Shown here: in pieces, positions 7,589 through 48,401 of the stretch | Numbering within the stretch: position 1 is the stretch's first letter | Layout of the letters: each line of letters starts with the position of its first letter | Assembly: GCF_009914315.1 (NCBI RefSeq) | Contig: NZ_CP042596.1 | Span: 3,906,001-3,970,000, forward strand | Length of the DNA stretch: 64,000 bases | Direction: 5' to 3' | Source: Granulicella sp. WH15 | Lineage (GTDB): Bacteria > Acidobacteriota > Terriglobia > Terriglobales > Acidobacteriaceae | Translations under genes and position numbers: made by a program | The notes under the pieces: model-generated | What the model was told of the DNA's origin: nothing | Database searches by the model: none | What the model saw: the letters and a program-made list of their open reading frames with translations, nothing else

Positions 7589-9504
7589 GCCACAACCACC
7601 GTTCTGAACATCCCAGCCTCCATGTGAAACATGAGGTGACAGTGATAAGCCCAGTGGCCTTTTACATCCGCGGAGACGAGATAACTAAGTCGCTCTGCAG
7701 GCTTGACGATAAGAGTGTGCTTGTAGGGGTTGAATGATCCATTTCCGTTTTCCAGTTCGCTCCACAGGCCGTGCAGGTGAATCGGATGTTCCATCATCGT
7801 GTCGTTGACAAGGATGATCCGTACGCGCTCTCCATAGCGCAGAGTTATCGGCTGAGCCTGTGAGAACTTCTTTCCGTCGAAGCCCCAAATGAACCGTTCC
7901 ATATTTCCCGTCAGGTGCAGTTCGATCTCCCGTGTCGGAGAACGACGGTCCACACCCGGGTAACGAGCTTTCAGGTCTGAATAGGCAAGAACCCTGCGTC
8001 CATTGTGCTGAAGTCCGACACCTGGATCGCTTAGCTTGGGGCCGGTGATAACTGCAATCCCCGATACTTCTGGCCCAACCTTGAGGACGCTGGCAAGATG
8101 AGGGAGAGGGGATGGCACAGATGTGGGAGTTCCGACTGGAAGTACATCGCGACCGGGTTGGGGCAGTGGAAACTGATCCCACATTGTTCGGGCCACCTCT
8201 TCCGGTGGTACGTGCATGTTCATCGCACTATCAGATCGCACGGTCATCGACGACGTATCGTGACCCGCAGCGACATGTGCGGTGTTCGCCGGCATATCCA
8301 TGTTCGACATGCCCTCCATACCGCCTCCCTGCATGCCTGACATGTTCATCTTCCCGTCGCCTGACATGGCGGGCATCGCCATACCTTTCATCTTCATTCC
8401 CATGTCAGCCATTGTGCGGATGGGTCGGGGATCCATCGTCGGTGTCTTGGCCTCGTTATTAGCGCTTGTGGCCAGGATGCCTTTTGCGTAGCCGGTTCGG
8501 TCTTCCGCCTGAGCGAAAATGACGTACGACATGTTTTCGGGGGAGACGATTACGTCATATGTCTCTGCTGTCCCAATCCGAAACTCGTCCACCATCACCG
8601 GCTCGACCGCATTCCCATCGGCGGCAACCACCTTCATCTGCAACCCGGGAATGCGGACATCAAAAAAGGTCATTGCCGAACCATTGACGATGCGCAACTT
8701 CACTTTTTCGCCCGGTTCAAAAAGGCCTTTCCAGCCGAGCGAGGGTGGCACTCCGTTGCAGAGATAGGTGTAGACGGAGCCTGAGACATCGGCGATGTCA
8801 GTCGGGCTCATGTTCATCTTTGACCACATCAGGTACTGCGCGAGGGCCGTGGAGAACTTCTTCGTCTGCGGGTCTCCGGACAGGTGATTCAGCGCAGGCC
8901 GGTGGTAGTTGTAGTAGCTGCCATCTTCCTTCAGGTTACTGAGGATCGTATGTGGATCGACGTCAGTCCAATCGGACAGGAATATCACATATTCGCGGTC
9001 GACCGCTTCGGATTCGGCAGTTTGGGGCTCGATAATGATCGCGCCACTAATGCCTGTTTGCTCTTGATATCCGCTGTGGCTGTGATACCAGAACGTACCG
9101 TTCTGCCTCACCGGAAAGCGATAGGTAAATGTCTCGCCCGGGCGAATACCCTCGAAGCTCAACCCAGGAACGCCATCCATGTCGGTCGGAATTCGCATGC
9201 CGTGCCAATGAATCGATGTGTTCGTCTTGAGCCTGTTCGTTACGTTGATTGTTACGGTCTCGCCTTCGCGCCAGCGAAGGGTCGGGGCTGGCACGGATCC
9301 ATTCACGGCCACTGCGGTGCGTGGCTTGCCTGAGAAATTGACGGACAGCTTATCGATCGTTAGATCGAACGTCGTTCCTTCCAATATCTTCGGAGATTGA
9401 GAAAGCATCTGGGCCGCACCTTGACCCGGGGCCCAAGTGACAATGCCCGCCGCTATCAAGCTCTGCATAAAGTGGCGACGGGTAAGACAATTCGATGTAT
9501 GCAT
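7585..9504 (-). CDS. copA: Copper resistance multicopper oxidase CopA
   Basis: A 639-residue periplasmic multicopper oxidase. The N-terminus has a twin-arginine signal (LTRRHFMQSLIAAGIVTWAP). Copper ligands are visible in all four motifs: HWHG at 98-101, WYHSHSG around 141, HPIHLHG at about 573 and HCHLMFHMEAGM near 621, so the type 1, 2 and 3 sites look complete. A methionine-rich central stretch (MGMKMKGMAMPAMSG and following repeats, about 360-410) is typical of CopA and binds Cu(I). The family oxidises Cu(I) and protects the periplasm. It is followed directly by copB and preceded by the universal stress gene on the same strand. Confidence 0.95.
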   Translation of the reverse strand: MHTSNCLTRRHFMQSLIAAGIVTWAPGQGAAQMLSQSPKILEGTTFDLTIDKLSVNFSGKPRTAVAVNGSVPAPTLRWREGETVTINVTNRLKTNTSIHWHGMRIPTDMDGVPGLSFEGIRPGETFTYRFPVRQNGTFWYHSHSGYQEQTGISGAIIIEPQTAESEAVDREYVIFLSDWTDVDPHTILSNLKEDGSYYNYHRPALNHLSGDPQTKKFSTALAQYLMWSKMNMSPTDIADVSGSVYTYLCNGVPPSLGWKGLFEPGEKVKLRIVNGSAMTFFDVRIPGLQMKVVAADGNAVEPVMVDEFRIGTAETYDVIVSPENMSYVIFAQAEDRTGYAKGILATSANNEAKTPTMDPRPIRTMADMGMKMKGMAMPAMSGDGKMNMSGMQGGGMEGMSNMDMPANTAHVAAGHDTSSMTVRSDSAMNMHVPPEEVARTMWDQFPLPQPGRDVLPVGTPTSVPSPLPHLASVLKVGPEVSGIAVITGPKLSDPGVGLQHNGRRVLAYSDLKARYPGVDRRSPTREIELHLTGNMERFIWGFDGKKFSQAQPITLRYGERVRIILVNDTMMEHPIHLHGLWSELENGNGSFNPYKHTLIVKPAERLSYLVSADVKGHWAYHCHLMFHMEAGMFRTVVVA

Positions 9505-19720: not shown

Positions 19721-20458
19721 ATGCTCAGAGTCCGCCGCCCATTCCGACTGGAAAAGCCTCCCATTCGGTTGCTCAATTCCCCCGCCAAACCGCGGGCACA
19801 ACTCCTCTCGAAACGAAAACTACTCCATGCAGCGCATGTGATGGGGCCGACACTTCTGGCGCTCACCATCGCGGGCATAGGCAGCGGCGTTGCCCATGCA
19901 CAAGGAACGATGGACTTCTCAGGAGCGCAAACGCTGATGGGAACCTTCAAAACTTTTGCGATTTACGCTGGGGCCGTTATCTGTTTCGGCGGCCTCATTT
20001 TTGCGGGAATCCGCATGATGAGTGGGCGTTTTCAATTTACGGCTCCGTCGAGGGATTTGCAGGTTGCCAATCGTGACCTCGGCACCATCCAGCACATCAG
20101 TGACGATGGCAAGATCAGCGTCCGCATGGATGGGGCAAAAGAGCGTACCGTCCGCTTCGATGCGAGCGAGATGCGACACCTCGACCACGGCTACGCCGTG
20201 ACCTCACACAGTTCGCAGGGACTTACCTCCGAGCGTGTGCTGGTGAATATGGATACCGAGGTTCATCCCGAATTGATAAACAGCAGATTTGCGTATGTAT
20301 CTGTCTCTCGTGCCTCGCACGATGCGCAGATTTATACCAATGATGCCGCCTCACTCGTGGGCAAGCTCAGTCACGATGTAAGCAAGAGCACGGCTATCAA
20401 TTTCGGCAATGCACAAAGCAACGCGGCGGCGCAGGGGTTAGCTCTGACCTTGCGTTGA
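19721..20458 (+). pseudogene. Chimera of TrbC/VirB2-like pilin N-terminus and MobF relaxase C-terminus
   Basis: One open frame of 245 codons with two unrelated parts. Residues 1-103 look like a TrbC/VirB2 pilin precursor: basic N-terminus, hydrophobic segment ending at AHAQ, then MDFSGAQTLMGTFKTFAIYAGAVICFGGLIF with two hydrophobic helices (about 42-60 and 76-98). From about residue 104, QFTAPSRDLQVANRDLG, DASEMRHLDHGYAVTSHSSQ and VSVSRASHDAQIYT match the C-terminal helicase part of TraI/MobF relaxases. The joint is near 20033. GGAGG precedes the ATG. An internal deletion between pilin and relaxase genes explains it best. A functional fusion is unlikely. Confidence 0.75.
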
Positions 20459-25679: not shown

Positions 25680-26030
25680 CGTCTCCTGCGTCAAAAATCC
25701 CAGAGACGCCAGCCACGCTCCACTGTTTTGCAGGAAAGGCCCTCTCGGGCCGAAGAATCGACAAATTCTTGCTATGAATTACTAGGGAGCTTGTCTCCCG
25801 CCCTCCCTGCGACTGCCTGGCGATCTCCACTTCCCACCGCTCTGCCGGTACGTTCCTGCCGCATTGCCGACCCCGGAAGCAATTAGGAAGGCTTCTAATT
25901 TTGTTCATTTATCAAGGCCACCGTTGCAAGCGTCTTTATGGCGAACCGCTCGGGCTGCTGCAAACTCTCCCGGTTGGATGAACCTTGCTTTTTCCACCCA
26001 GGTTAGAAATGATTGGGTGGGGCGGGTACG
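25680..26030. other. Intergenic region before the TonB receptor
   Basis: About 350 bp that must contain the receptor promoter on the minus strand. I see an A/T-rich tract near 25770-25790 and a GGGTGG/CCACCC pair near 25994-26019 flanking the structured RNA, but no clear gene. Confidence 0.4.
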
Positions 26031-26257
26031 CACTGCCCTGGGGTGTGGAAACCCCTAACCAAGTAGTAGTGCGCCGGACTGTCTTCGGTGTGCTTAGGAC
26101 TCCCTTCGCCTTTGCGTCGGGGAGCTTGTGACGAATGTCCAGGCCCCTAAAGCTAAAGGTCACAGGAACCGTACTTGGTTCGGTTTTCCAACTCCCCGAC
26201 CTGGGGTTTTTAAGGGCAGTTTGCGGGGGCGCACCGCAAACGTTTCTCCCTTGACCG
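26031..26257 (+). ncRNA. Candidate structured leader RNA, copy 1
   Basis: Homologous to 46998-47221 although the flanks are unrelated. Visible helices: closing helix 26032-26039 with 26213-26220; hairpin 26040-26044/26051-26055 with loop GTGGAA; long helix GTCGGGGAG/CTCCCCGAC (26116-26124/26192-26200); inner helix TGTGAC/GTCACA (26127-26132/26159-26164); and hairpin GTTTGCGG/CCGCAAAC (26219-26226/26234-26241) with loop GGGCGCA. Several pairs change in a compensatory way between the copies. A GGAGGAG site and a small frame follow, which puts it on the plus strand as a leader. I cannot assign it to a known family. Confidence 0.7.
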
Positions 26258-26271
26258 TTGGAGGAGACCGC

Positions 26272-26409
26272 TTGATCTTCCTTGACGCCAAAGATGCGCA
26301 GCGCCGAAAGTCCCGGCGTATGTTTACTGTTCACGACTACCGTTCCGGTGGTCGTCGGCACAACCGCGCTTGTCGCGAATTCATAAAGACGATGTTGCAT
26401 CAGGTCTGA
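26272..26409 (+). CDS. Possible small ORF behind leader RNA copy 1
   Basis: A 45-codon frame with a TTG start 5 nt after GGAGGAG. The product would be basic (DAKDAQRRKSRRMF, RSGGRRHNRACREF). No family is recognised, and it does not resemble the small frame behind RNA copy 2. Support comes from the ribosome site and the position only. Confidence 0.35.
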   Translation: MIFLDAKDAQRRKSRRMFTVHDYRSGGRRHNRACREFIKTMLHQV

Positions 26410-26779: not shown

Positions 26780-27179
26780 CATTGAGAAAACCCTGCTCGC
26801 TGGGGAGGTGTCTCCTCCCCGGCGTCAGCCGCTCTGCGTCTTGCGCCACCCTCCTCTGCGGGCCTGTTTCCTGCCCGCAACGCCGACCCTGAAAACCTAA
26901 AAGCAAGTACAACAGCAAACCCTATGTTGCGCTGACGCGCGGCTTGGCCCCACTTCGGTTCGCAAGGGTGGACGGCCCCTCAAGCGGGCCTTGTGGAGTC
27001 CGTTCGGATAAGCGTGTCTCGCGCCAAACGATAGAGCGTGTTTGTCACGCGCCCCGCCCACCACTCCGGCCTCCCCACCCTCACTGCCCTCGTTCTGCTC
27101 TGTCTGCCAGTGGATCGTTTTGGTCTCGCTGCGCTGTGAGAAACACAAAACGCCCACCGGGCAGACAGAGGCAAAAACA
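26780..27179 (+). other. Long leader with many hairpins upstream of the ArdC operon
   Basis: About 400 bp without a convincing gene but dense in hairpins: GCTGGGGAGG/CCTCCCCGGC near 26799-26823, GCGGGC/GCCCGC near 26857, GGCCC/GGGCC near 26975-26991 and GCGTG/CACGC near 27029-27043. G+C is high and frames here are broken. It looks like a second structured leader, found once in this window. Confidence 0.45.
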
Positions 27180-28160
27180 ATGGAATATCAAAGCAACATC
27201 AACAGCAACAGCGCATCCACCGCCAGCAATGGCATAGCCACCACCGTAGCCACTACCCGCCGCAATCGTCCCACCACCGAAAACCCTGAAAGACCGCAGC
27301 AACAGCCACAGACGGCGAAAGAAGTAATCGCCGCCAACGTGCAGAACCTCATCGAGCAGCTAGAGGCCGGACACTCCGATGCACTCACCGCTTACCTCAA
27401 TGCGATGAGCCGCTTTCATAACTACTCGTTTGGCAATATCCTCGAAATCGCACGGCAGAAGCCGGATGCAACCCGCGTTGCCGGATTCTGGAAGTGGAAA
27501 GAGTTTGGCCGCAGCGTGAAGAAGGGCGAGAAGGGCATCCGCATCCTTGCCCCCATCGTCGGCATTCGTCGCAAGAAAGACGAGGAAGTGCAGGCCAGCA
27601 AAGACCCCGCCGCGATCAATAAGCCCGTATTGGTTGGGTTTCGTTCGGCGTATGTCTTCGATGTGTCGCAGACCGAAGGCGCGGAGATTCCCACGATGCG
27701 GGAGATTTCCGGCGATGTAGGCGAGAACCGCGACCGTCTCATTGCCTTCATCGAACGTCAGGGCATCGAACTTGCTTTTACCGAGCGCATCGCCCCCGCG
27801 CTTGGCATGAGCTACGGCGGACGCATCGCCATCCTGCCCGGTCAGTCGAAGGCCGAGGAGTTCAGCACGCTTGTTCACGAGCTGGCGCACGAGATGCTGC
27901 ACAAGGCCGAGCGGCGCACGGCAACGACGAAGACAGTGCGCGAAACCGAGGCCGAGGCTATCGCCTTTGTCATCGGCAAGGCCGTAGGGCTGGAGACGGG
28001 TTCGGCCAGTGCCGACTACATCCAGCTTTACCACGGCAATGCTTCACTCCTAGCCGAAAGTCTGGAAGTCATTCAGCAGACCTCAGCCGTCATCCTTGCC
28101 GCATTGCAGCCGTCCGCAGCCGCGACGATGCCCGATGCAGAACTGGCGAAGGTGGCGTAA
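27180..28160 (+). CDS. ArdC-like antirestriction protein with zincin domain
   Basis: A 326-residue protein. The ArdC N-terminal single-strand DNA-binding domain lies at about 45-170 (MSRFHNYSFGNILEIARQKP, FGRSVKKGEKGIRILAP). The C-terminal part holds the metallopeptidase motif HELAHEMLHKAE near 236 with a downstream glutamate in RETEAEAIAFVIG. ArdC proteins protect incoming plasmid DNA from restriction or act on ssDNA during transfer. AGAGG precedes ATG 27180; an earlier in-frame start lies within the leader and lacks a site. It is translationally joined to the next gene. Confidence 0.88.
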   Translation: MEYQSNINSNSASTASNGIATTVATTRRNRPTTENPERPQQQPQTAKEVIAANVQNLIEQLEAGHSDALTAYLNAMSRFHNYSFGNILEIARQKPDATRVAGFWKWKEFGRSVKKGEKGIRILAPIVGIRRKKDEEVQASKDPAAINKPVLVGFRSAYVFDVSQTEGAEIPTMREISGDVGENRDRLIAFIERQGIELAFTERIAPALGMSYGGRIAILPGQSKAEEFSTLVHELAHEMLHKAERRTATTKTVRETEAEAIAFVIGKAVGLETGSASADYIQLYHGNASLLAESLEVIQQTSAVILAALQPSAAATMPDAELAKVA

Positions 28161-28576
28161 TGCAGACCATCCTTCAAATCCTCAAGATGGCCGGGGGTTG
28201 GCATCCCGGCCTGTACGTCAAAATCGACAATGCCCCATACATGGAGCTTGTCATCGAGGCGATGGACGAGTCCGGCCCGATGGGACTCCCCGCGCTCTCT
28301 GTCGCGCACTATGGCGAACAGAACGGCGATGCCATGCGTGACCCGGAGATGTGTTTCGAGCTTGGCCTAGCCGGTGGAGCGCATCTCTCCGCGTTCTACT
28401 ATCGCAACGATTATTTAGGCGTGGAGCAGTGGAGCCGGAACATCGTGCGCGGGAACTACGTTCACCTGATCGCGTTGCACGAGCAGCACCAGCGTTTCGC
28501 TAAGACGTGGGACAACAACCTGCGCTTGCAGGGATTCGTGGAAGCCTTCGAGCGGCAGAAGACCCCACGCGCCTAA
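28160..28576 (+). CDS. DUF6908-like mobile element protein
   Basis: A 138-residue protein whose middle, LSVAHYGEQNGDAMRDPEMC, resembles the DUF6908 group found between ardC and parB genes on mobile elements; the family name is from memory. No membrane segment or catalytic motif is visible. The ATG shares one base with the ArdC stop (TAATG), so the two are coupled. Confidence 0.6.
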   Translation: MQTILQILKMAGGWHPGLYVKIDNAPYMELVIEAMDESGPMGLPALSVAHYGEQNGDAMRDPEMCFELGLAGGAHLSAFYYRNDYLGVEQWSRNIVRGNYVHLIALHEQHQRFAKTWDNNLRLQGFVEAFERQKTPRA

Positions 28577-28661
28577 ACCCTTTCCGCAGCGGAGCGGACA
28601 CAGGGCAGCGCGTTCGCTCCACAACCTCATGCAGTGCAACCGCTCGAAAGGAGCCATCCCC

Positions 28662-30269
28662 ATGAACACCACCGTTATCAACGCTACCGAGTACCGCAAT
28701 CTTCCGCTTGCCTTGCTCACCGAGTCCACCACCAACCCGCGCCGCATCTTCGAGGATGCAGCTTTGAAGGAATTGGCAGAGAGCATCCGCACCCAGGGCG
28801 TTCTCTCTCCCTTGCTTGTGCGTCCCTTGAATGAACGCGGTTTTGAGATCGTGGCAGGAGCACGGCGTTACCGCGCCGCGCAGATGGCCGAGGCTGAAAC
28901 TGTACCCGTCCGTATCGTCAATCTCACCGACGCTGAAACCTTAGAGGCTCAATTGGTCGAAAACCTGATGAGGCGTGACGTTCATCCAATGGAGGAAGCC
29001 AGCGGTTTTCGCGCTCTCCTGAATCTGGACGAGCCGAAATACTCCATCGAGCAAATCTCCGCACGTACCGGGAAAAATCCGGCTTACGTCGCGGCTCGTG
29101 TGAAGCTGACCGAGCTTGCGCCGATAGTGGTCGAAGCCTTCTACCGCGAGGAGATCGGCGTCGGTCATGCGCTCTTACTGGCGAAGCTCCAGCCCGATCA
29201 GCAGGAACAGGCGCTTGCCGCTTGCTTCAAACAGGATTGGAGCGCGGGAGGCGAGAAGCCGAAACGCATCCTGCTCCCCGTCCGCAGTCTGCAATTCTGG
29301 ATTGAGTCGAACATCTTGCTCATCCTCAAACTCGCGCCGTTCGACAAGCGGGACGGGCAGCTTGTGCCAGCAGCCGGGAGTTGCGTGGACTGCCCCATGC
29401 GGACAGGGCATAACAAACTCCTGTTCTCCGACCTTGGCAAACTGGACGCTTGCACTTCGCCTAGCTGCTATCAGGCTAAGGTGGATGCCCACGTAGCTAA
29501 GACCATCGCCACCAAACCCAAGCTCGTGCAGATCAGCACGGCCTATGGACAGCAGAAGGAAGGCAGCGCCACGTTGCCGCGCAACCAGTACGTTGAAGTC
29601 CGGCCTGAGAAGCCCGCGACCAAAGAAGAGGCCACGCGACCGGAGTTCAAGACCTGCAAATACACCACCGAAGCTATCGTCTCCGAAGGCATCGACAAAG
29701 GGCAATTGCGTAAGGTATGCACGGAGCCAACCTGCCCGGTGCATCATCCCAAGCAGCGTCCGCAGAAGGTCGCGGACGATACGAAGTGGAAGGCCGAACA
29801 GGAGAAGCAGCGCAGGGAGGCCGCAATTTCCAATGCGACCGGCATCCGCATCCTTGCCGCCATCACCGCAGCCGTTCCGGTGCGTCTGATGAAGCGTGAC
29901 CTGCTTTTCGTGGTGGAGCGGCTGGCTTCCTTGCTGGACGAAAACCGTCTCGCTGTGGTCGCCAAGCAACACGGCATCAAGAAGGCCAAAGACAGCGACT
30001 CCATCGGGAAGCTGTTTGCCGCCTATGTGCGACGTGCTGAAGAGAACGTGTTAGGCCGCGTGTTGGTCGAACTGACCATCCTCCACGCAGCCACACGGCA
30101 GAACGCCGCGCTGGTTCTCCGCGATGCCGCCACCGTGTACAAGGTGGACACCGATGCTATCGCTCTCAAGGTGAAGCAGGAGTTTGCTGCCAAAGAGAAA
30201 GTGCAGTCCGTGAAGAAGCCTGTAACTAAAACCCCACCCAAGGCCGCGAAGAAGGCGAAGGCTGCCTAG
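28662..30269 (+). CDS. ParB/RepB/Spo0J-family protein
   Basis: A 535-residue ParB-like protein. The N-terminal nuclease-like domain (about 10-110) has NPRRIFEDAALKELAESIRTQG-type sequence, with GAEIVAGARRYRAAQMAEAE (present as FEIVAGARRYRAAQMAEAE) and ENLMRRDVHPMEEA. A helix-turn-helix follows (YSIEQISARTGKNPAYVAAR). The middle contains several cysteines (CVDCPMRTGHNKLLF, CTSPSCYQAK, CTEPTCPVHH) that suggest metal binding. The end is lysine-rich. No ParA partner is adjacent, so partition in the usual sense is doubtful; a role in element maintenance or transfer regulation is more likely. AAGGAG precedes the ATG. Confidence 0.9.
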   Translation: MNTTVINATEYRNLPLALLTESTTNPRRIFEDAALKELAESIRTQGVLSPLLVRPLNERGFEIVAGARRYRAAQMAEAETVPVRIVNLTDAETLEAQLVENLMRRDVHPMEEASGFRALLNLDEPKYSIEQISARTGKNPAYVAARVKLTELAPIVVEAFYREEIGVGHALLLAKLQPDQQEQALAACFKQDWSAGGEKPKRILLPVRSLQFWIESNILLILKLAPFDKRDGQLVPAAGSCVDCPMRTGHNKLLFSDLGKLDACTSPSCYQAKVDAHVAKTIATKPKLVQISTAYGQQKEGSATLPRNQYVEVRPEKPATKEEATRPEFKTCKYTTEAIVSEGIDKGQLRKVCTEPTCPVHHPKQRPQKVADDTKWKAEQEKQRREAAISNATGIRILAAITAAVPVRLMKRDLLFVVERLASLLDENRLAVVAKQHGIKKAKDSDSIGKLFAAYVRRAEENVLGRVLVELTILHAATRQNAALVLRDAATVYKVDTDAIALKVKQEFAAKEKVQSVKKPVTKTPPKAAKKAKAA

Positions 30270-43525: not shown

Positions 43526-43603
43526 GTTTTCCTCTCGACCTCTGCCCGGCATAGCGATAGGCTTTAAGAAAGCCATCCGTTGCGCCGGAGAAAGGGAGTA
43601 GTT

Positions 43604-44794
43604 ATGCCAAGGCGCACACGGTATCAACAAGGAAGCGTGCAACGTGACAAGCGGCTAAGCGGACCGGATGTTTGGGTCTTTCGTTGGAGGGAAATCGGAC
43701 CAGATGGCAAAAGCGCTCAGCGCAAAACGGTCATCGGAACGGTAGTCACTCTCCCCTCAGAAGCATCCGCCCTCAAAGCAGCCCAAGCGTTGCGCATCGA
43801 CGCCAACCAACAAACCCCGCGAGCGGATAGTCGCCCGAGCACGATAGCGGAACTGATCGAACATTATCGGTTGAAGGAACTGACCGAAGACGAACAGGGA
43901 CGCAAGGCGCACTCAACACGAGCCGCTTACGAATGTTACCTAAACGTCTGGATTGCTCCTCGTTGGGGCAATCACCGGCTCCAGCAAGTGAAGTCTGTAG
44001 CCGTCGAGGAATGGCTGGGGAACATCGAACGGGCAAGAGGAACCAAAGCGAAGATTCGGAACATTATGAGCGCTCTCTTCAGTCACGCAATGCGGTACGA
44101 GTGGACGGACAGAAATCCGATCCGTCTCGTTCGGCAAAGTGCGAAACGAGAGAAGATTCCCGATGTTCTCGAATTGCACGAACTCCAGACACTTCTCACC
44201 AAACTGGCCGTCAGGGAACGCACGTTAGTATTGCTCGACGCGGCGACCGGATTGCGGGTGAGCGAACTTCTCGCTCTCAAGTGGGATGACATTGACTTTG
44301 AGAATCTGGAGATTCGCGTCACCGAATCCATTTGGCATCAGGTATTGGGTGTCTGCAAAACAGAGGCGTCGGCGAGACCCGTCCCAATGGACGACTACAT
44401 GGCCGAGGATCTTCTGCGTTGGAGAAAAACCTGTCTATATCCGATGGAGAGCGATTGGGTCTTCGCCAGCCCGACCATGAAAGGCACACAGCCCTACTGG
44501 CCGGACAACCTCATGAAGCGGTACATCAAGCCAGCGGCAAAGGCTGCGGGCATCCACAAGAACATCGGCTGGCACACCTTCCGCCACTCCTTCGGCACGC
44601 TGCTGAAGGCGAACGGGGAAGATGTGAAGACCGTCCAGGAGCTTTTACGACACGCCAACAGCAAGATCACGCTTGACGTTTATACGCAGGCCGTGAACTC
44701 GCATAAGCGTGCCGCACAGAGCAAGGTTGTACAGATGATTGTGCCCGGCGTGGGCACAATGGCGAAGGGAGCACGTACAGGTACAGAAGCGTAA
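43604..44794 (+). CDS. Tyrosine recombinase (integrase) of element 2
   Basis: A 396-residue integrase paralogous to that of element 1. The N-terminus QQGSVQRDKRLSGPDVWVFRW matches the arm-binding-like start of the other enzyme. Catalytic residues are in DAATGLRVSELLALKWDDID, HTFRHSFGTLL and KITLDVYTQAV (tyrosine). ATG 43604 has GGGAG 6 nt upstream. Its 3' end is directly followed by arm-type repeats, a hairpin and the att copy. Confidence 0.95.
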   Translation: MPRRTRYQQGSVQRDKRLSGPDVWVFRWREIGPDGKSAQRKTVIGTVVTLPSEASALKAAQALRIDANQQTPRADSRPSTIAELIEHYRLKELTEDEQGRKAHSTRAAYECYLNVWIAPRWGNHRLQQVKSVAVEEWLGNIERARGTKAKIRNIMSALFSHAMRYEWTDRNPIRLVRQSAKREKIPDVLELHELQTLLTKLAVRERTLVLLDAATGLRVSELLALKWDDIDFENLEIRVTESIWHQVLGVCKTEASARPVPMDDYMAEDLLRWRKTCLYPMESDWVFASPTMKGTQPYWPDNLMKRYIKPAAKAAGIHKNIGWHTFRHSFGTLLKANGEDVKTVQELLRHANSKITLDVYTQAVNSHKRAAQSKVVQMIVPGVGTMAKGARTGTEA

Positions 44795-45174: not shown

Positions 45175-45222
45175 ATTTCATGCAGACACTAGTATCCAGT
45201 TATGATACTGTGTTCTTATTTC

Positions 45223-45239
45223 GTTCCCTGCGGGGGAAC
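45223..45239. promoter_or_regulatory. AbiE operator 2 overlapping the ribosome site
   Basis: GTTCCCTGCGGGGGAAC, same arms as the first dyad, ending 3 nt before the antitoxin ATG. Bound repressor would block both transcription and start of translation. AbiEi antitoxins are known to repress through two inverted repeats. Confidence 0.65.
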
Positions 45240-45242
45240 AAT

Positions 45243-46094
45243 ATGAGCACAGAATACAATCCGAAGACTGCCGGACCCGGATCGAAAACTCTGGGACCAA
45301 GATCGTCTGCGCTATGGGTGGAACTCAACGAACGCGGCAAGACCACGTTCACTCTCCAGGATGCCGAGGAGATAACCGGACTGCGCGGCTCATCGGTGCG
45401 GACCCTGATCCATAAGGCGGAGCGGCGGGGACTCGTCACGCGGCTTCGCTCCGGCCTCTATACGCTCGTTCCCTTTGAGCTGGGCCGGGCAACGGAGTAT
45501 GTGGGCGATCCCTATGTCATCGCCCGCGAGATGTGCGAGGGACGCCCCTACTTCCTCTCGCACGCCTCGGCGATGGAGCTGCACCGCATGGTCACACAAC
45601 CGCAGTTCACGATCTATGTCAGCTCGACGATGCGGACGCCGCCGCGCTCCGTGCATGGACACGAGTATCGTTTCGTCACGGTCAAGCCGGAGGATTTCTT
45701 CGGACTGACGCAAGTGTGGATTACGAAGCAGCAGTCCGTCATGGTCAGCGACAAGGAGCGGACGATCCTCGACGCCCTGCGCCAGCCTCAATACGCGGGC
45801 GGCATCCCGGAGGTGGCGAAGGCTCTCTGGATGAGTAGAGAAGCCATCAAGGTTCCGCAGCTTCTCGACTACGTGCAGCACTTTTCGAGCGGCGCTCTGC
45901 GGCGGCGGCTCGGCTTCCTGTTGGAACTCTACGCAATGGCTTCGCCGGAGCAGCTTGAACCGCTGCGCTCGAAGCTGACCTCGACTTATGACCGCCTCGA
46001 TCCGACGCTGCCGAAGTCTGGTTCTTTTCAAGCGCGCTGGCGTCTGCAACTCAATATCGGTATCGACGAACTGGAGGCGATTCCGCACACATGA
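45243..46094 (+). CDS. AbiEi-type antitoxin (type IV toxin-antitoxin)
   Basis: A 283-residue antitoxin. The N-terminal winged helix (about 15-80) has FTLQDAEEITGLRGSSVRTLIHKAERRG and LVTRLRSGLYTLVP, as in AbiEi. The C-terminal AbiEi_4-like domain has YFLSHASAMELH and VWITKQQSVMVSDKERTILDAL. It should repress its promoter through the two dyads and neutralise the toxin. ATG 45243 is chosen because the earlier in-frame start lies between the operators. It overlaps the toxin gene by four bases. Confidence 0.9.
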   Translation: MSTEYNPKTAGPGSKTLGPRSSALWVELNERGKTTFTLQDAEEITGLRGSSVRTLIHKAERRGLVTRLRSGLYTLVPFELGRATEYVGDPYVIAREMCEGRPYFLSHASAMELHRMVTQPQFTIYVSSTMRTPPRSVHGHEYRFVTVKPEDFFGLTQVWITKQQSVMVSDKERTILDALRQPQYAGGIPEVAKALWMSREAIKVPQLLDYVQHFSSGALRRRLGFLLELYAMASPEQLEPLRSKLTSTYDRLDPTLPKSGSFQARWRLQLNIGIDELEAIPHT

Positions 46095-46927
46095 TTCCGC
46101 AGCGCAACATCTCGCTTCTCGCCAACCGGCTGTACAAGGAACATGGTGGCCGTCGGATTCCCGAGGCCGTACTGGAGCGGGATTACTGCCTAGCTTGGTT
46201 TCTGGTGGGCTTGAGCCAAAGCAAGCTCCGCGACCTTCTCATCTTCAAGGGTGGCACTGCGCTCAAACGCTGCCACTTCGGGGACTATCGTTTTTCCGAA
46301 GACCTGGACTTTACCCTTGCAAGAAGAGTGGAATTCACGGAGATCCGCGAAGGGTTGGAAGAGGTGTATGAGCTGGTGGCCCAAGCCTCCGGCATACGCT
46401 TCTCTTTCGAGGCTGAGGACCGACAGACGCACGTCAACAGCTACACCTTTTATCTCCGGTATCAAGGACCGCTGCCGACATCAAACACGGTCAAGGTGGA
46501 CATCACGGTCGCGGAGATCCTGCTTTTTCCGGTAGAGCAGCTTCCGGTTCTACGCACCTACCCAGAATTTGAGGACGTACCGGAAGATCGCCCAATCTCC
46601 GTGTACAGCCTGAACGAGATCGCTACTGAAAAAATCGTCGCTCTTCAGGACCGGGCTCGCAACGAGCCTCGTGACCTCTACGATCTGTGGTTCCTGACCT
46701 CTCATGCGGGTATCGAAATCGGCCATCTCATCGGAGCCATCACGGGAAAACTGCGCTTCCGAGAGAAAAGCATTAATGGCGTCGAAGACCGCATCATCGC
46801 AAAAGAAGTCCGTTTGAAGGCGCTGTGGGACGGTCGCCTTGGACATCAGATGGAAGCGTTGCCCCCGTATGATGAAGTCTTTCGCACCGTGCGGCGCGAG
46901 CTTCGTCAGGCAGGCTTTCCCCAGTAA
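46091..46927 (+). CDS. AbiEii/AbiGii-type nucleotidyltransferase toxin
   Basis: A 278-residue nucleotidyltransferase-like toxin. The active-site motif is LIFKGGTALKRCHFGDYRFSEDLDFT (read GGTALKRC then FSEDLDFTL), with the two aspartates of the DxD site, and later VKVDITVAEILLF and SLNEIATEKIVALQDRARNEPRDLYDLWFL. Family members modify tRNA or bind GTP and stop growth. The pair also protects against phages in other bacteria. Confidence 0.92.
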   Translation: MIPQRNISLLANRLYKEHGGRRIPEAVLERDYCLAWFLVGLSQSKLRDLLIFKGGTALKRCHFGDYRFSEDLDFTLARRVEFTEIREGLEEVYELVAQASGIRFSFEAEDRQTHVNSYTFYLRYQGPLPTSNTVKVDITVAEILLFPVEQLPVLRTYPEFEDVPEDRPISVYSLNEIATEKIVALQDRARNEPRDLYDLWFLTSHAGIEIGHLIGAITGKLRFREKSINGVEDRIIAKEVRLKALWDGRLGHQMEALPPYDEVFRTVRRELRQAGFPQ

Positions 46928-46997
46928 AGCAAAATATTCAGGGCTCAATAGCAAGCCATTGCCATTCCCGGTTACATGCCCGATGATGGAATCGGAC

Positions 46998-47221
46998 GGT
47001 ACGCACCGCCCTGGGTGTCGAAACCCATGCAGAAACGCCGTGGATCGGAGACGGTCACGGATAGATTCCCTACGCCTTTGCGTCGGGGAGCTGTGGACGT
47101 ATGTCCAGGCTTCACGGCTAAAGGTCCATGGAACCGAGTGTTTCTGCCGGTTTTCGAACTCCCCGACGAGGGTTACTAGGGCTGTTTGCGGGGGCGCACC
47201 GCAGACGTTTTTCCCTTTCCC
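46998..47221 (+). ncRNA. Candidate structured leader RNA, copy 2
   Basis: Homologous to 26031-26257. Helices: closing 47005-47012/47178-47185 (one mismatch); hairpin 47012-47016/47023-47027 with loop GTCGAA; GTCGGGGAG/CTCCCCGAC (47082-47090/47159-47167); GTGGAC/GTCCAT (47093-47098/47124-47129); GTTTGCGG/CCGCAGAC (47184-47191/47199-47206) with the same GGGCGCA loop. A GAGGAG site and small frame follow. The conserved loops and changed stems are those of an RNA, not a protein. Confidence 0.7.
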
Positions 47222-47241
47222 GCCAATGCGAGGAGTTAGCT

Positions 47242-47400
47242 ATGATTTCTCTTGCGACAAGCAGTGTAGCGGGTATTTTGCTCAACCGGAGGAGCAGTGC
47301 AGATCCATACCTCTGTGCTCTGCTGAGAGCCGTTCGGACCCTGCGGTCGATTTTGCCTCCTGCGTTCATTTTCGGAGGATGCACAGGAACCTCAGCATGA
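47242..47400 (+). CDS. Small ORF between leader RNA copy 2 and the zincin gene
   Basis: A 52-codon frame with ATG 6 nt after GAGGAG, the best ribosome site in this stretch. Its stop overlaps the next ATG by four bases, so it would couple translation of the zincin gene to the leader. The product (MISLATSSVAGILLNRRSS at the start) is mildly hydrophobic and arginine-rich. It is unrelated to the small frame behind RNA copy 1. Confidence 0.5.
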   Translation: MISLATSSVAGILLNRRSSADPYLCALLRAVRTLRSILPPAFIFGGCTGTSA

Positions 47401-48401
47401 GCGAGTCTATTCGATTACGGTTTCATGGCGACGAGGAAGGTAAACTCCCACTTCCAAAACAATGCAGCATTGCCATCTCAAGCTGTGAGACCCCGGAGAT
47501 ATGTCAGGCCGTCGCCGCTGTCATGGAGCAAATCTTGTATGCGTTGGCTCTCTTTGGTCTGGACCTTCGTGCTCTGGACGGAATCACGCTTTCCCGCGAT
47601 TGCCGGACGGATGGGGCTGCATTACAAAGCATCCCGGAGGGACAGGTTCCTTTGGAGATGACTGACCGACCCGACACGATGGAGATGGGTCGAACCGTTG
47701 CCGTTTGGCGAGAGAAAGAGCTTCGATTCCATATTGTTCTCCGGGCTGGCATCGGACTGATGACGCTTTCGCCGGAGAAGGAACAGCAAGCGCTGGCGTA
47801 TGCGTGTATCGCTCACGAAGCCGCGCACGTCGATCACGAAGGGCATCTCTATCGAACCTTTCCCGGCATCTATGGCCGCCCTCTGGAGTGCGGGGACCGT
47901 TCCCGGCAGACGTTCCTCAAAGCGATGGATGTTTGGAGTGAATACGCGGCGTGCCGGTCCTCGGCCACGTTCCGGCCAGAGGCCGTGGAGGAGTTTGAAG
48001 GTCTGTTCTGCCGGGTACTCGAAGAAAGTCTCACCGCCTGCAAAGAACGGATCGCAGCCTACCGGCGCGATCAAAAGACTCTACAGGTATTCATGGACAT
48101 TCAGCAGCTCTTTGGGGATGTCTTTATCCATGCCGGATATTTCCTGGGCCACCTCGACGGATTGGAACTCACTTTAGAGGGACATGCCCCCCATGCTTCC
48201 ACACTGCTCCGGCAGCACCCGCAGATTGAAGCGTTGGTGATCCGCCTGCGCCGCGTGCTACATGAACTTTGGCTTGGTGAATATGGTTGGAAGTCTATTG
48301 AAGTCTTTGCGCCCATTTATGACTTGATCTGCGAGATGATGGCACTGCATGGGCTGGCCTTCGCAAGACACAACGACGAATGGCACATGGTCGTCCTGTG
48401 A
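47397..48401 (+). CDS. Putative zincin-like protein of element 3
   Basis: A 334-residue protein without known family. CIAHEAAHVDHEGHLYRTFPG near residue 140 has the HExxH zinc motif, with a possible third ligand in H/E residues that follow. Two later helical regions have YRRDQKTLQVFMDIQQLF and GHLDGLELTLEGHAPHAS. AGGA lies 8 nt before the ATG. After its TGA the same frame stays open for 22 codons (DDDAADGIQDALADWMKRAE), so the stop may be a nonsense change that shortened the gene. Longer upstream starts run through the RNA and were rejected. Confidence 0.6.
   Translation: MSESIRLRFHGDEEGKLPLPKQCSIAISSCETPEICQAVAAVMEQILYALALFGLDLRALDGITLSRDCRTDGAALQSIPEGQVPLEMTDRPDTMEMGRTVAVWREKELRFHIVLRAGIGLMTLSPEKEQQALAYACIAHEAAHVDHEGHLYRTFPGIYGRPLECGDRSRQTFLKAMDVWSEYAACRSSATFRPEAVEEFEGLFCRVLEESLTACKERIAAYRRDQKTLQVFMDIQQLFGDVFIHAGYFLGHLDGLELTLEGHAPHASTLLRQHPQIEALVIRLRRVLHELWLGEYGWKSIEVFAPIYDLICEMMALHGLAFARHNDEWHMVVL

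Follow-up and report, generated by a model that had tools for sequence, protein, structure and literature searches.

A structured leader RNA of mobile elements in Alphaproteobacteria and Acidobacteriota with a layout like that of the phage C4 and CI RNAs

Two copies of one RNA in the window

The 64,000-nt stretch of the Granulicella sp. WH15 genome analyzed here (the window) contains two segments, 26031-26257 (copy 1) and 46998-47221 (copy 2), which an earlier note made from the sequence alone had called homologous in spite of differing flanks, and the question raised by this locus is what kind of RNA they encode. The homology is borne out: both segments encode the same structured RNA, which reads on the plus strand, has stems that covary and occupies a leader position. 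Its first hairpin, P0, starts slightly more 5' than the ends given in that note (at 26020 and 46994), and the note picked up P2, P4, part of the inner helices and P7 but overlooked both long-range pairings. As it had observed, the long helix GTCGGGGAG/CTCCCCGAC is unchanged (26116-26124/26192-26200 in copy 1, 47082-47090/47159-47167 in copy 2), the P7 loop GGGCGCA reads the same in both copies, and in the hairpin at 26040/47012 the outermost pair changes from G-C (copy 1) to T-A (copy 2). SD-like sites at 26260 and 47230 are each followed by a short frame (from TTG 26272, 45 aa, and from ATG 47242, 52 aa), and judged by eye the two frames show no relatedness, again as the note had it.

The plus strands have folding z values of -2.63 (copy 1) and -2.06 (copy 2), and the minus strand of copy 1 has -1.15. 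These values, together with the covariance-model confirmation of 128 of 129 pattern-found stretches from public collections (below), show that the copies are not chance resemblances. A third copy is present in the same genome (4.67 Mb in one contig) on the minus strand at G000:C1:1070963-1071105.

No Rfam 15 family reaches its gathering score in the window; this search rejects HEARO together with every other family at that score, and the HEARO/IsrB-type RNA suggested earlier is further disfavored by the lack of an IscB/IsrB domain among the frames scanned. In a permissive Rfam search the sole match at both sites is sRNA-Xcc1 (RF02221), with 19.2 bits at copy 1 (26116-26208) and 16.8 bits at copy 2, against a gathering score of 53.

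From 5' to 3' the order of elements is a promoter-like site, P0, P2, seqA, a variable hairpin P3, the 5' strand of P1, P4 around P5 and P6, the 3' strand of P1 (P1'), P7, the SD and a start codon. The features of copy 1, with their basis where one applies, are as follows.

25985..26013, plus strand: promoter-like site, TTGCTT, 17 nt, AATGAT, 7 nt ahead of P0 (read in the sequence)
26020..26038, plus strand: P0, a 5' hairpin with an ACGC loop, at the expected transcription start
26040..26055, plus strand: P2 hairpin GGGGTGTGGAAACCCC, whose loop (site a) is complementary to the linker 26185-26190 (covariation test)
26057..26065, plus strand: seqA (AACCAAGTA), complementary to seqB in the P6 loop (covariation test)
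26100..26106, plus strand: P1 5' strand, of which CCCTT pairs with 26212-26216 (consensus fold)
26116..26200, plus strand: core of P4, P5 and P6 (consensus fold and covariation; the sRNA-Xcc1 model aligns)
26116-26124/26192-26200, plus strand: P4
26125-26132/26159-26166, plus strand: P5
26167-26171/26181-26185, plus strand: P6
26172-26180, plus strand: seqB (TACTTGGTT) in the P6 loop
26185-26190, plus strand: linker a'
26212..26216, plus strand: P1 3' strand AAGGG, alternative partner 26248-26252
26219..26241, plus strand: P7 terminal hairpin, loop GGGCGCA (alignment)
26260..26409, plus strand: SD GGAGGAG and the 45-aa frame from TTG 26272 (sequence)

The corresponding features of copy 2 are these.

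46959..46987, plus strand: promoter-like site, TTGCCA, 17 nt, GATGAT, 7 nt ahead of P0
46994..47011, plus strand: P0 hairpin, 5 of 6 pairs
47012..47027, plus strand: P2 hairpin TGGGTGTCGAAACCCA, whose loop TCGAAA pairs with TTTCGA at 47152-47157
47029..47038, plus strand: seqA GCAGAAACGC, which pairs with seqB GTGTTTCTGC at 47138-47147
47082..47167, plus strand: core of P4, P5 and P6
47184..47206, plus strand: P7 hairpin
47230..47400, plus strand: SD GAGGAG and the 52-aa frame from ATG 47242, whose stop overlaps the next start (ATGA)

Distribution

By BLAST the RNA is found in 13 of 100 relatives, the source genome included, all of them within one of 29 genera. A covariance model built from 23 sequences (R1), applied with stricter filters to a sample of the phylum, finds it in 5 of the 297 genomes, which fall into 2 of the 166 genera, again counting its own. 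Searches of PLSDB returned 167 plasmid records for copy 1 (153 predicted to be conjugative), 129 for copy 2, and 336 for a copy on a Ti plasmid (185 from Agrobacterium and 250 predicted to be conjugative); in all 60 of the matches listed for the Ti-plasmid query the match touches annotated traM. BLAST of phage records gave no match to the RNA.

A degenerate pattern of the core is present in at least 120 stretches of species genomes and 9 of IMG/VR, and R1 at E<=0.01 confirms 128 of the 129 pattern-found stretches among the matches listed (L058 is the miss). The covariance model, a check proposed in the earlier note, did find further homologs, about 150 among the matches listed (103 after thinning), in Alphaproteobacteria and Acidobacteriota. 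From their genus names we take the orders among the matches listed to be Rhizobiales, Sphingomonadales, Rhodobacterales, Caulobacterales and Acetobacterales; at least nine of these matches are Acidobacteria and at least two carry a Gammaproteobacteria label, one of the latter seemingly through mis-binning. A 6806-base contig binned as Rhodanobacteraceae equals a contig of an Acidobacterial genome in size and RNA score (L122/L011) and is probably mis-binned.

Sampling was by one exact pattern, so that counts by taxon are lower bounds, and the model E-values are rough. Of 157 model matches 155 were used, an antisense echo (L101, 16 bits) and a weak match (L141, 18.3 bits) being left out; some matches are one contig reached twice. 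For the statistics 7 of the 155, which lie below 60 bits, were excluded, and the remaining 148 were thinned to 103 at 92% similarity.

Variation among copies

P0 can be drawn with all six pairs in 75 of 85 copies, with five in 8 and with four in 2, taking the best of several offsets. When 84 copies are aligned on P0, the best -10 match falls in two adjacent columns in 59, and 28 of the 84 have at least five of six -10 bases, as against 9 after shuffling; the information per column is modest, and the TTG columns of the -35 hold only 0.3-0.5 bits. The core of copy 1 carries the conserved GAATGTCCAGG..CTAAAGG, and the P7 loop is GGGCGTA or one of a few further variants in other copies. P2 loops are A-rich across the copies, a property that the P2 search itself demanded and that is biased accordingly. 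A kissing contact between the P0 loop (ACGC) and the P7 loop (GCGYA) was rejected by eye.

Three Sphingomonas sequences (L030 2100-2185, L062 4867-4949 and L133 6486-6562) have the P4-P5-P6 core alone, with very short P6 loops, and the model finds no 5' half in them. Two broken copies (L098 2806-2951 and L134 3159-3315) have lost the core and share a TCTCTAGCCGCG-like sequence in its place, as if recombined at a similar point.

Two long-range pairings with variable arms

The best-supported pairings of the RNA are two long-range ones, which join seqA to the P6 loop and the P2 loop to the linker after P6. In the window they read AACCAAGTA/TACTTGGTT (copy 1) and GCAGAAACGC/GTGTTTCTGC (copy 2) for the first, and TGGAAA/TTTCCA (copy 1) and TCGAAA/TTTCGA (copy 2) for the second, which is TTAGAATCC/GGATTCTAA or TTTGTAACC/GGTTACAAA, among others, in further copies. 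For seqA and seqB the mean score is 17.65 compared with 9.96 for swapped partners (z=32, reached in 0 of 40 shuffles; 81 of the 103 copies, the pattern having missed P2 in 22), and for the P2 loop and linker it is 14.92 compared with 11.91 (n=96, z=12.0, reached in 0 of 100 swaps). Since the swap partners are related sequences these controls are conservative, yet phylogeny is still in them.

The pairing arms are also the most variable part of the RNA, with 85 distinct seqB sequences in 96 copies, certain calls being doubtful (for example that of L081). The earlier note had named riboswitch-type leaders for comparison, and of this the leader position holds. A riboswitch-type leader may apply, but that the most variable parts are arms which covary closely with their partners agrees better with antisense specificity loops of the C4/CI type than with an aptamer. 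In the 13 genomes with several copies seqB differs in 18 of 19 pairs; 85 of 96 seqB sequences are distinct in any case, so this is compatible with specificity without proving it. The nineteenth pair is in genome G011, where two copies (L012 and L023) have identical seqA and seqB, a combination that strict incompatibility through the RNA would forbid if both copies were active.

Folded strand and helix P1

Counted in helices whose anchoring took no account of pairing, there are 73 G-U against 4 A-C cells in P5 and 76 against 7 in the P7 extension, an excess that identifies the plus strand as the folded strand; the counts for P4 and P2 are biased towards pairing, and the strand reading is for this reason based on P5 and the P7 extension. 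A minus-strand or single-stranded DNA fold was rejected on this asymmetry and on the copy 1 minus-strand z of -1.15. Frpo-type single-stranded DNA promoters fold in the transferred strand and have the promoter inside the fold. A conjugation element of this type, whether it served as a promoter or for priming, with its fold in the transferred strand, would suit the many predicted conjugative plasmids, with the RNA in up to three places per record among the matches listed, and the unrelated genes behind it; but both G-U ratios and the position of the promoter-like site outside the structure speak against it, and we find it scarcely credible.

The earlier note had proposed a switch in which AGGGC pairs either with a 5' GCCCT or with a 3' CCCTT. 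Pairing of AGGG with a 5' or a 3' CCCT can indeed be drawn, but GCCCT at 26035-26039 lies mostly inside P0, and the consensus fold prefers the later CTCCCTT (26100-26106) as the 5' partner. In 88 copies (12 lacked a P7 match and 3 were dropped), helix P1 is not significant against swapped partners (z 1.3 and 1.4), and the alternative pairing of its 3' strand with the strand behind P7 has z=5.0 in 67 Alphaproteobacterial copies and a nonsignificant z=0.4 in 21 Acidobacterial copies. Ribosome-site accessibility with P1 formed versus open is 0.431 v 0.428 in 68 sequences (changes above 0.05: 14 up, 18 down) and 0.306 v 0.342 in 19 (7 up, 5 down). A simple ribosome-site switch driven by P1 finds no support in this near constancy across 87 sequences and was set aside.

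These results bear on a cis-acting leader, riboswitch-like or protein-binding, in which seqA/seqB and P2 loop/linker would be tertiary contacts and the choice between P1 and an extended P7 stem would control the frame. Because seqA and seqB lie in one molecule, a pseudoknot in cis explains their covariation equally well, and the RNA resembles pseudoknotted riboswitches and leader attenuators in being a promoter-proximal structured leader with a pseudoknot and two mutually exclusive pairings that can be drawn. It lies directly ahead of frames with unrelated products, its GTATGTCCAGG, CTAAAGG and P7 loop are strongly conserved, the alternative pairing is significant in Alphaproteobacteria, and a downstream antisense site is absent (below), all of which a cis leader would accommodate. 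It differs from those leaders in that the genes behind it do not form a shared metabolic set (TraM, HTH, HD, KH, PAS/GGDEF and small frames are found) and in lacking a supported expression platform. The alternative pairing is nonsignificant in Acidobacteria, and the ribosome site barely responds to P1. The great variability of the arms, and the antisense partners that the same arms have in phage relatives (below), count for antisense over a cis leader, which we regard as rather unlikely.

Genes behind and around the RNA

The RNA usually lies 20-40 nt ahead of an open frame. Frames were chosen by rule, without annotation (for copy 2 the rule picked a 391-aa frame), and those of at least 40 aa are in reach of 88 of the 103 copies among the matches listed, 15 having none; by the start-picking rule the median distance from P7 to the start is 27 nt in 68 sequences and 36 nt in 19. 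Among these 88 frames Pfam matches are to TraM (33), HTH_3 (11), HD (3) and KH (2), with single matches to PAS/GGDEF, AraC and others. The frame behind copy 3 (L002 1006-1455) has a KhpA/KhpB-type KH domain, an RNA-binding fold, and the second of the two KH-domain frames belongs to L083 or another copy of the set.

In Acidobacteria the first gene behind the RNA is a small frame, and in 10 of the 19 Acidobacterial copies that have a frame it runs into, or ends right at, another frame of at least 80 aa. In 8 of the 19 this coupled frame belongs to one protein family, whose members follow the small frame at window 47242-48401 and in L073, L122, L009, L015, L016, L021 and L072. Seven of the eight have AHEAAH, an HExxH motif as in zinc metallopeptidases; the remaining one is cut short at 141 aa. 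The member in the window has no Pfam or PDB match and matches phage family PHROG 11743 (function unknown; E 8.5e-20); one thought is that this family may be an ImmA-like antirepressor protease. It and the other neighboring genes of the two copies are listed here.

27042-28160, plus strand: gene with an ArdC N-terminal domain, behind copy 1
28160-28576, plus strand: DUF6908 gene, behind copy 1
28629-30269, plus strand: ParB gene, behind copy 1 (best NCBIfam model PRTRC ParB, below its cut-off)
43580-44794, plus strand: tyrosine integrase, before copy 2
45180-46927, plus strand: AbiEi-like and AbiEii toxin-antitoxin pair, just ahead of copy 2
47397..48401, plus strand: 334-aa protein with AHEAAH (HExxH), its start overlapping the stop of the 52-aa frame; its frame is open back to an alternative start at ATG 47226 (391 aa)

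The genes at 27042..30269 behind copy 1 are of plasmid type. A further frame of 245 aa, at 19721-20458, has a match below the cut-offs to the helicase end of TraA/TraI relaxases and is probably what is left of a conjugation module of the first element.

Such neighborhoods bear on whether the RNA is instead a free-standing small RNA whose true targets are other mRNAs of the host or element, the frame behind being incidental. A title cited in PMC12444791 does call sRNA-Xcc1 a trans-acting sRNA; a start codon close behind at the medians above and TraM as 33 of the 88 frames (among the matches listed) point the other way, and this seems to us quite improbable.

Comparison with sRNA-Xcc1, C4 and CI

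The sRNA-Xcc1 model scores 16.8-25.2 bits on the RNA, less than half of its gathering score. Over the 4.67-Mb genome at E<=1 it matches copy 3 alone (23.5 bits, E 0.224), and at the same threshold 2 of the 14 control genomes give a match too. Conversely, R1 finds plasmid-borne sRNA-Xcc1 at the correct places (L159, E 0.0008; L158, 0.0033; L160, 0.13). In the full-length model alignment the two have the same three-way-junction core and helix order, and sRNA-Xcc1 also shares the upstream complement. It stands 37-46 nt ahead of a frame in two annotated plasmid loci, and in integron cassettes it sits upstream of symE in the passages of PMC12444791 that describe it, ahead of a small gene as here.

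The C4 model (RF01695, gathering score 45 bits) has no match at E<=10 in the source genome, and R1 scores at best 1.7 bits on the CI stretch of phage P4, with nothing at the CI core. The C4 model does match phage P4 with 74.9 bits (8420-8507, within the region annotated as cI) and phage P1 with 68.8 bits. By eye the P4 leader has GCGTGAGAACCCG and then AGCAATTCACAG, CI having TCCTGTGAA and TTCTCA, and the P1 leader has TTTTGACAGCC, then GTTAGTG, CGG and a terminator, C4 having CACTAAC and CTGTCAA; both pairings can thus be read in the two phage leaders in the same order as in our RNA. Excerpts on these systems describe seqA and seqC around CI of phage P4 (PMC4825925) and, for phage P1, a' and b' loops of C4, a 5' end cut by RNase P and a processed form of about 77 nt (PMC5320573). 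The arms of C4 and CI are in addition complementary to the ribosome site of the next gene.

A broader phage-type set was gathered with the sRNA-Xcc1 core pattern and comprises 92 non-redundant loci among the matches listed, 89 from viral contigs and 3 from plasmids. Rfam was put to a subset of 15, of which 14 reach the sRNA-Xcc1 cut-off (L218 has 51.6 of 53 bits); some loci resemble chance matches to the pattern and were kept. Loci of the sRNA-Xcc1 type (L158-L160, L162-L281) are common in viral contigs. Among the matches listed the P6 loop (z=14.6) and the linker (z=10.8) pair upstream (n=90), and they pair downstream as well (z=9.7 and z=6.9, n=92), where in 65 of 91 the partner runs up to an SD-like triplet ahead of a start. 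This arrangement is the one published for P4 CI and P1 C4. The pairing on both sides, so often at an SD-like site, makes the family look C4-like rather than like a free trans-acting sRNA; if the role proposed below is right, sRNA-Xcc1 may primarily be a C4-like RNA that serves the gene it precedes.

Our RNA shares with C4 its encoding in a leader, its location on mobile elements and its variable specificity arms, as well as a bipartite upstream site (a and seqA), a hairpin and a closed core in which one loop and one linker are complementary to that site. Among the matches listed, 69 of 87 phage-type loci have CGG behind seqA, as do 54 of 95 copies of the RNA; in the phages proper, the hairpin comes with CGG in P1 and without it in P4. 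The upstream hairpin, seen in 69 of 87 phage-type loci versus 52 of 87 random places, is weak as a test. The RNA differs from C4 in its added P0, P1 and P7, in other conserved core sequence to which the C4 model is blind, and in two further respects. Among the matches listed, 69 of 87 phage-type loci have a U-run terminator between seqA and the core, versus 2 of 95 copies of the RNA, leaving 93 of 95 without it; from P1, P4 and the phage-type loci we infer that an intrinsic terminator between upstream site and core is a C4 feature. The P6 loop, unlike sRNA-Xcc1-type loops, has no partner at the downstream ribosome site, z being -0.2 (n=21) and -0.1 (n=67) for the 80 nt behind P7 and -0.9 and 0.3 for 400 nt, and a second, phage-style antisense site downstream was rejected for this loop on all four tests.

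The layout behind the RNA is also familiar. In phage P1, icd-ant lies behind C4, likewise a small frame and a phage-type gene. The small frame coupled to the phage-family HExxH protein also resembles the orf45-anrP coupling that an excerpt of PMC4825925 describes for the IsrK operon.

The earlier note had held that a match to a known RNA class would overturn its view of the RNA, and this applies by half: the RNA has a core distantly related to sRNA-Xcc1 and the layout of C4/CI, but scores below both cut-offs, and it is filed in neither Rfam family. It is probably distantly related to C4, CI and sRNA-Xcc1.

Proposed role

On balance we think it probable that the RNA is a divergent plasmid/ICE relative of the C4/CI immunity RNAs, acting as an autogenous antisense RNA on its own leader. 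The promoter-like site, structure, covariation, position and kinship of layout appear in the DNA itself; processing of the core, action in trans, the direction of the effect and a zygotic role we infer. Both stretches would be 5' leaders of mobile-element operons, from which the core would be released, or left, as a stable RNA as in C4/CI. Its two arms would anneal to site a and seqA on new transcripts of the same leader, and annealing would stop or damp the frames behind (TraM, HTH regulators, and small frames coupled to the HExxH protein). An established element would in this way hold the gene down, and a burst of its expression would follow when an element arrives in a naive cell. Specificity would be set by the two hypervariable arms. 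Counting against this antisense role are the missing downstream site, the U-run in only 2 of 95 copies, the silence of the C4 model, the low sRNA-Xcc1 scores, the G011 pair with the same seqB and the 15 of 103 copies without a frame.

More tentatively, phage-type RNA immunity might have been taken over in two phyla by ICEs and conjugative plasmids, among them Ti plasmids, and there govern how TraM and other conjugation regulators are expressed zygotically; C4, CI, sRNA-Xcc1 and this RNA would then form one superfamily of self-recognizing leader RNAs, with members in phages and satellites as well as in integron cassettes and plasmids. If so, a third RNA joins two Rfam families now filed apart, seqA/seqB is a readable specificity code by which mobile elements may recognize their own kind, and such elements may check their own genes by the old trick of the self-recognizing immunity RNAs of phages P1 and P4.

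Searches of the open-licence literature (listings and passages) found no publication on the RNA. C4 and the motif c4-a1b1 are listed for Proteobacteria or gamma-Proteobacteria and phages in an excerpt of Weinberg 2010. As to the traM leader as an Agrobacterium sRNA, the excerpt of PMC3738593 has counts and a table without Ti-plasmid entries, that of PMC2881028 has nothing on it, and the terms are absent from PMC6341043. If the proposal is true, conjugation of Ti plasmids would be controlled at an additional RNA level, through the traM leader, for which the open-licence searches gave no print record.

The gene order on one annotated Ti plasmid is a ProQ/FinO gene, the RNA and traM; in L027 9569-10464 (pTiFPH-AT4) a ProQ/FinO-family gene stands directly 5' of the RNA and traM. 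As proteins of the FinO type are binders of structured RNA, the ProQ/FinO protein encoded ahead of the traM leader could be a partner of the RNA.
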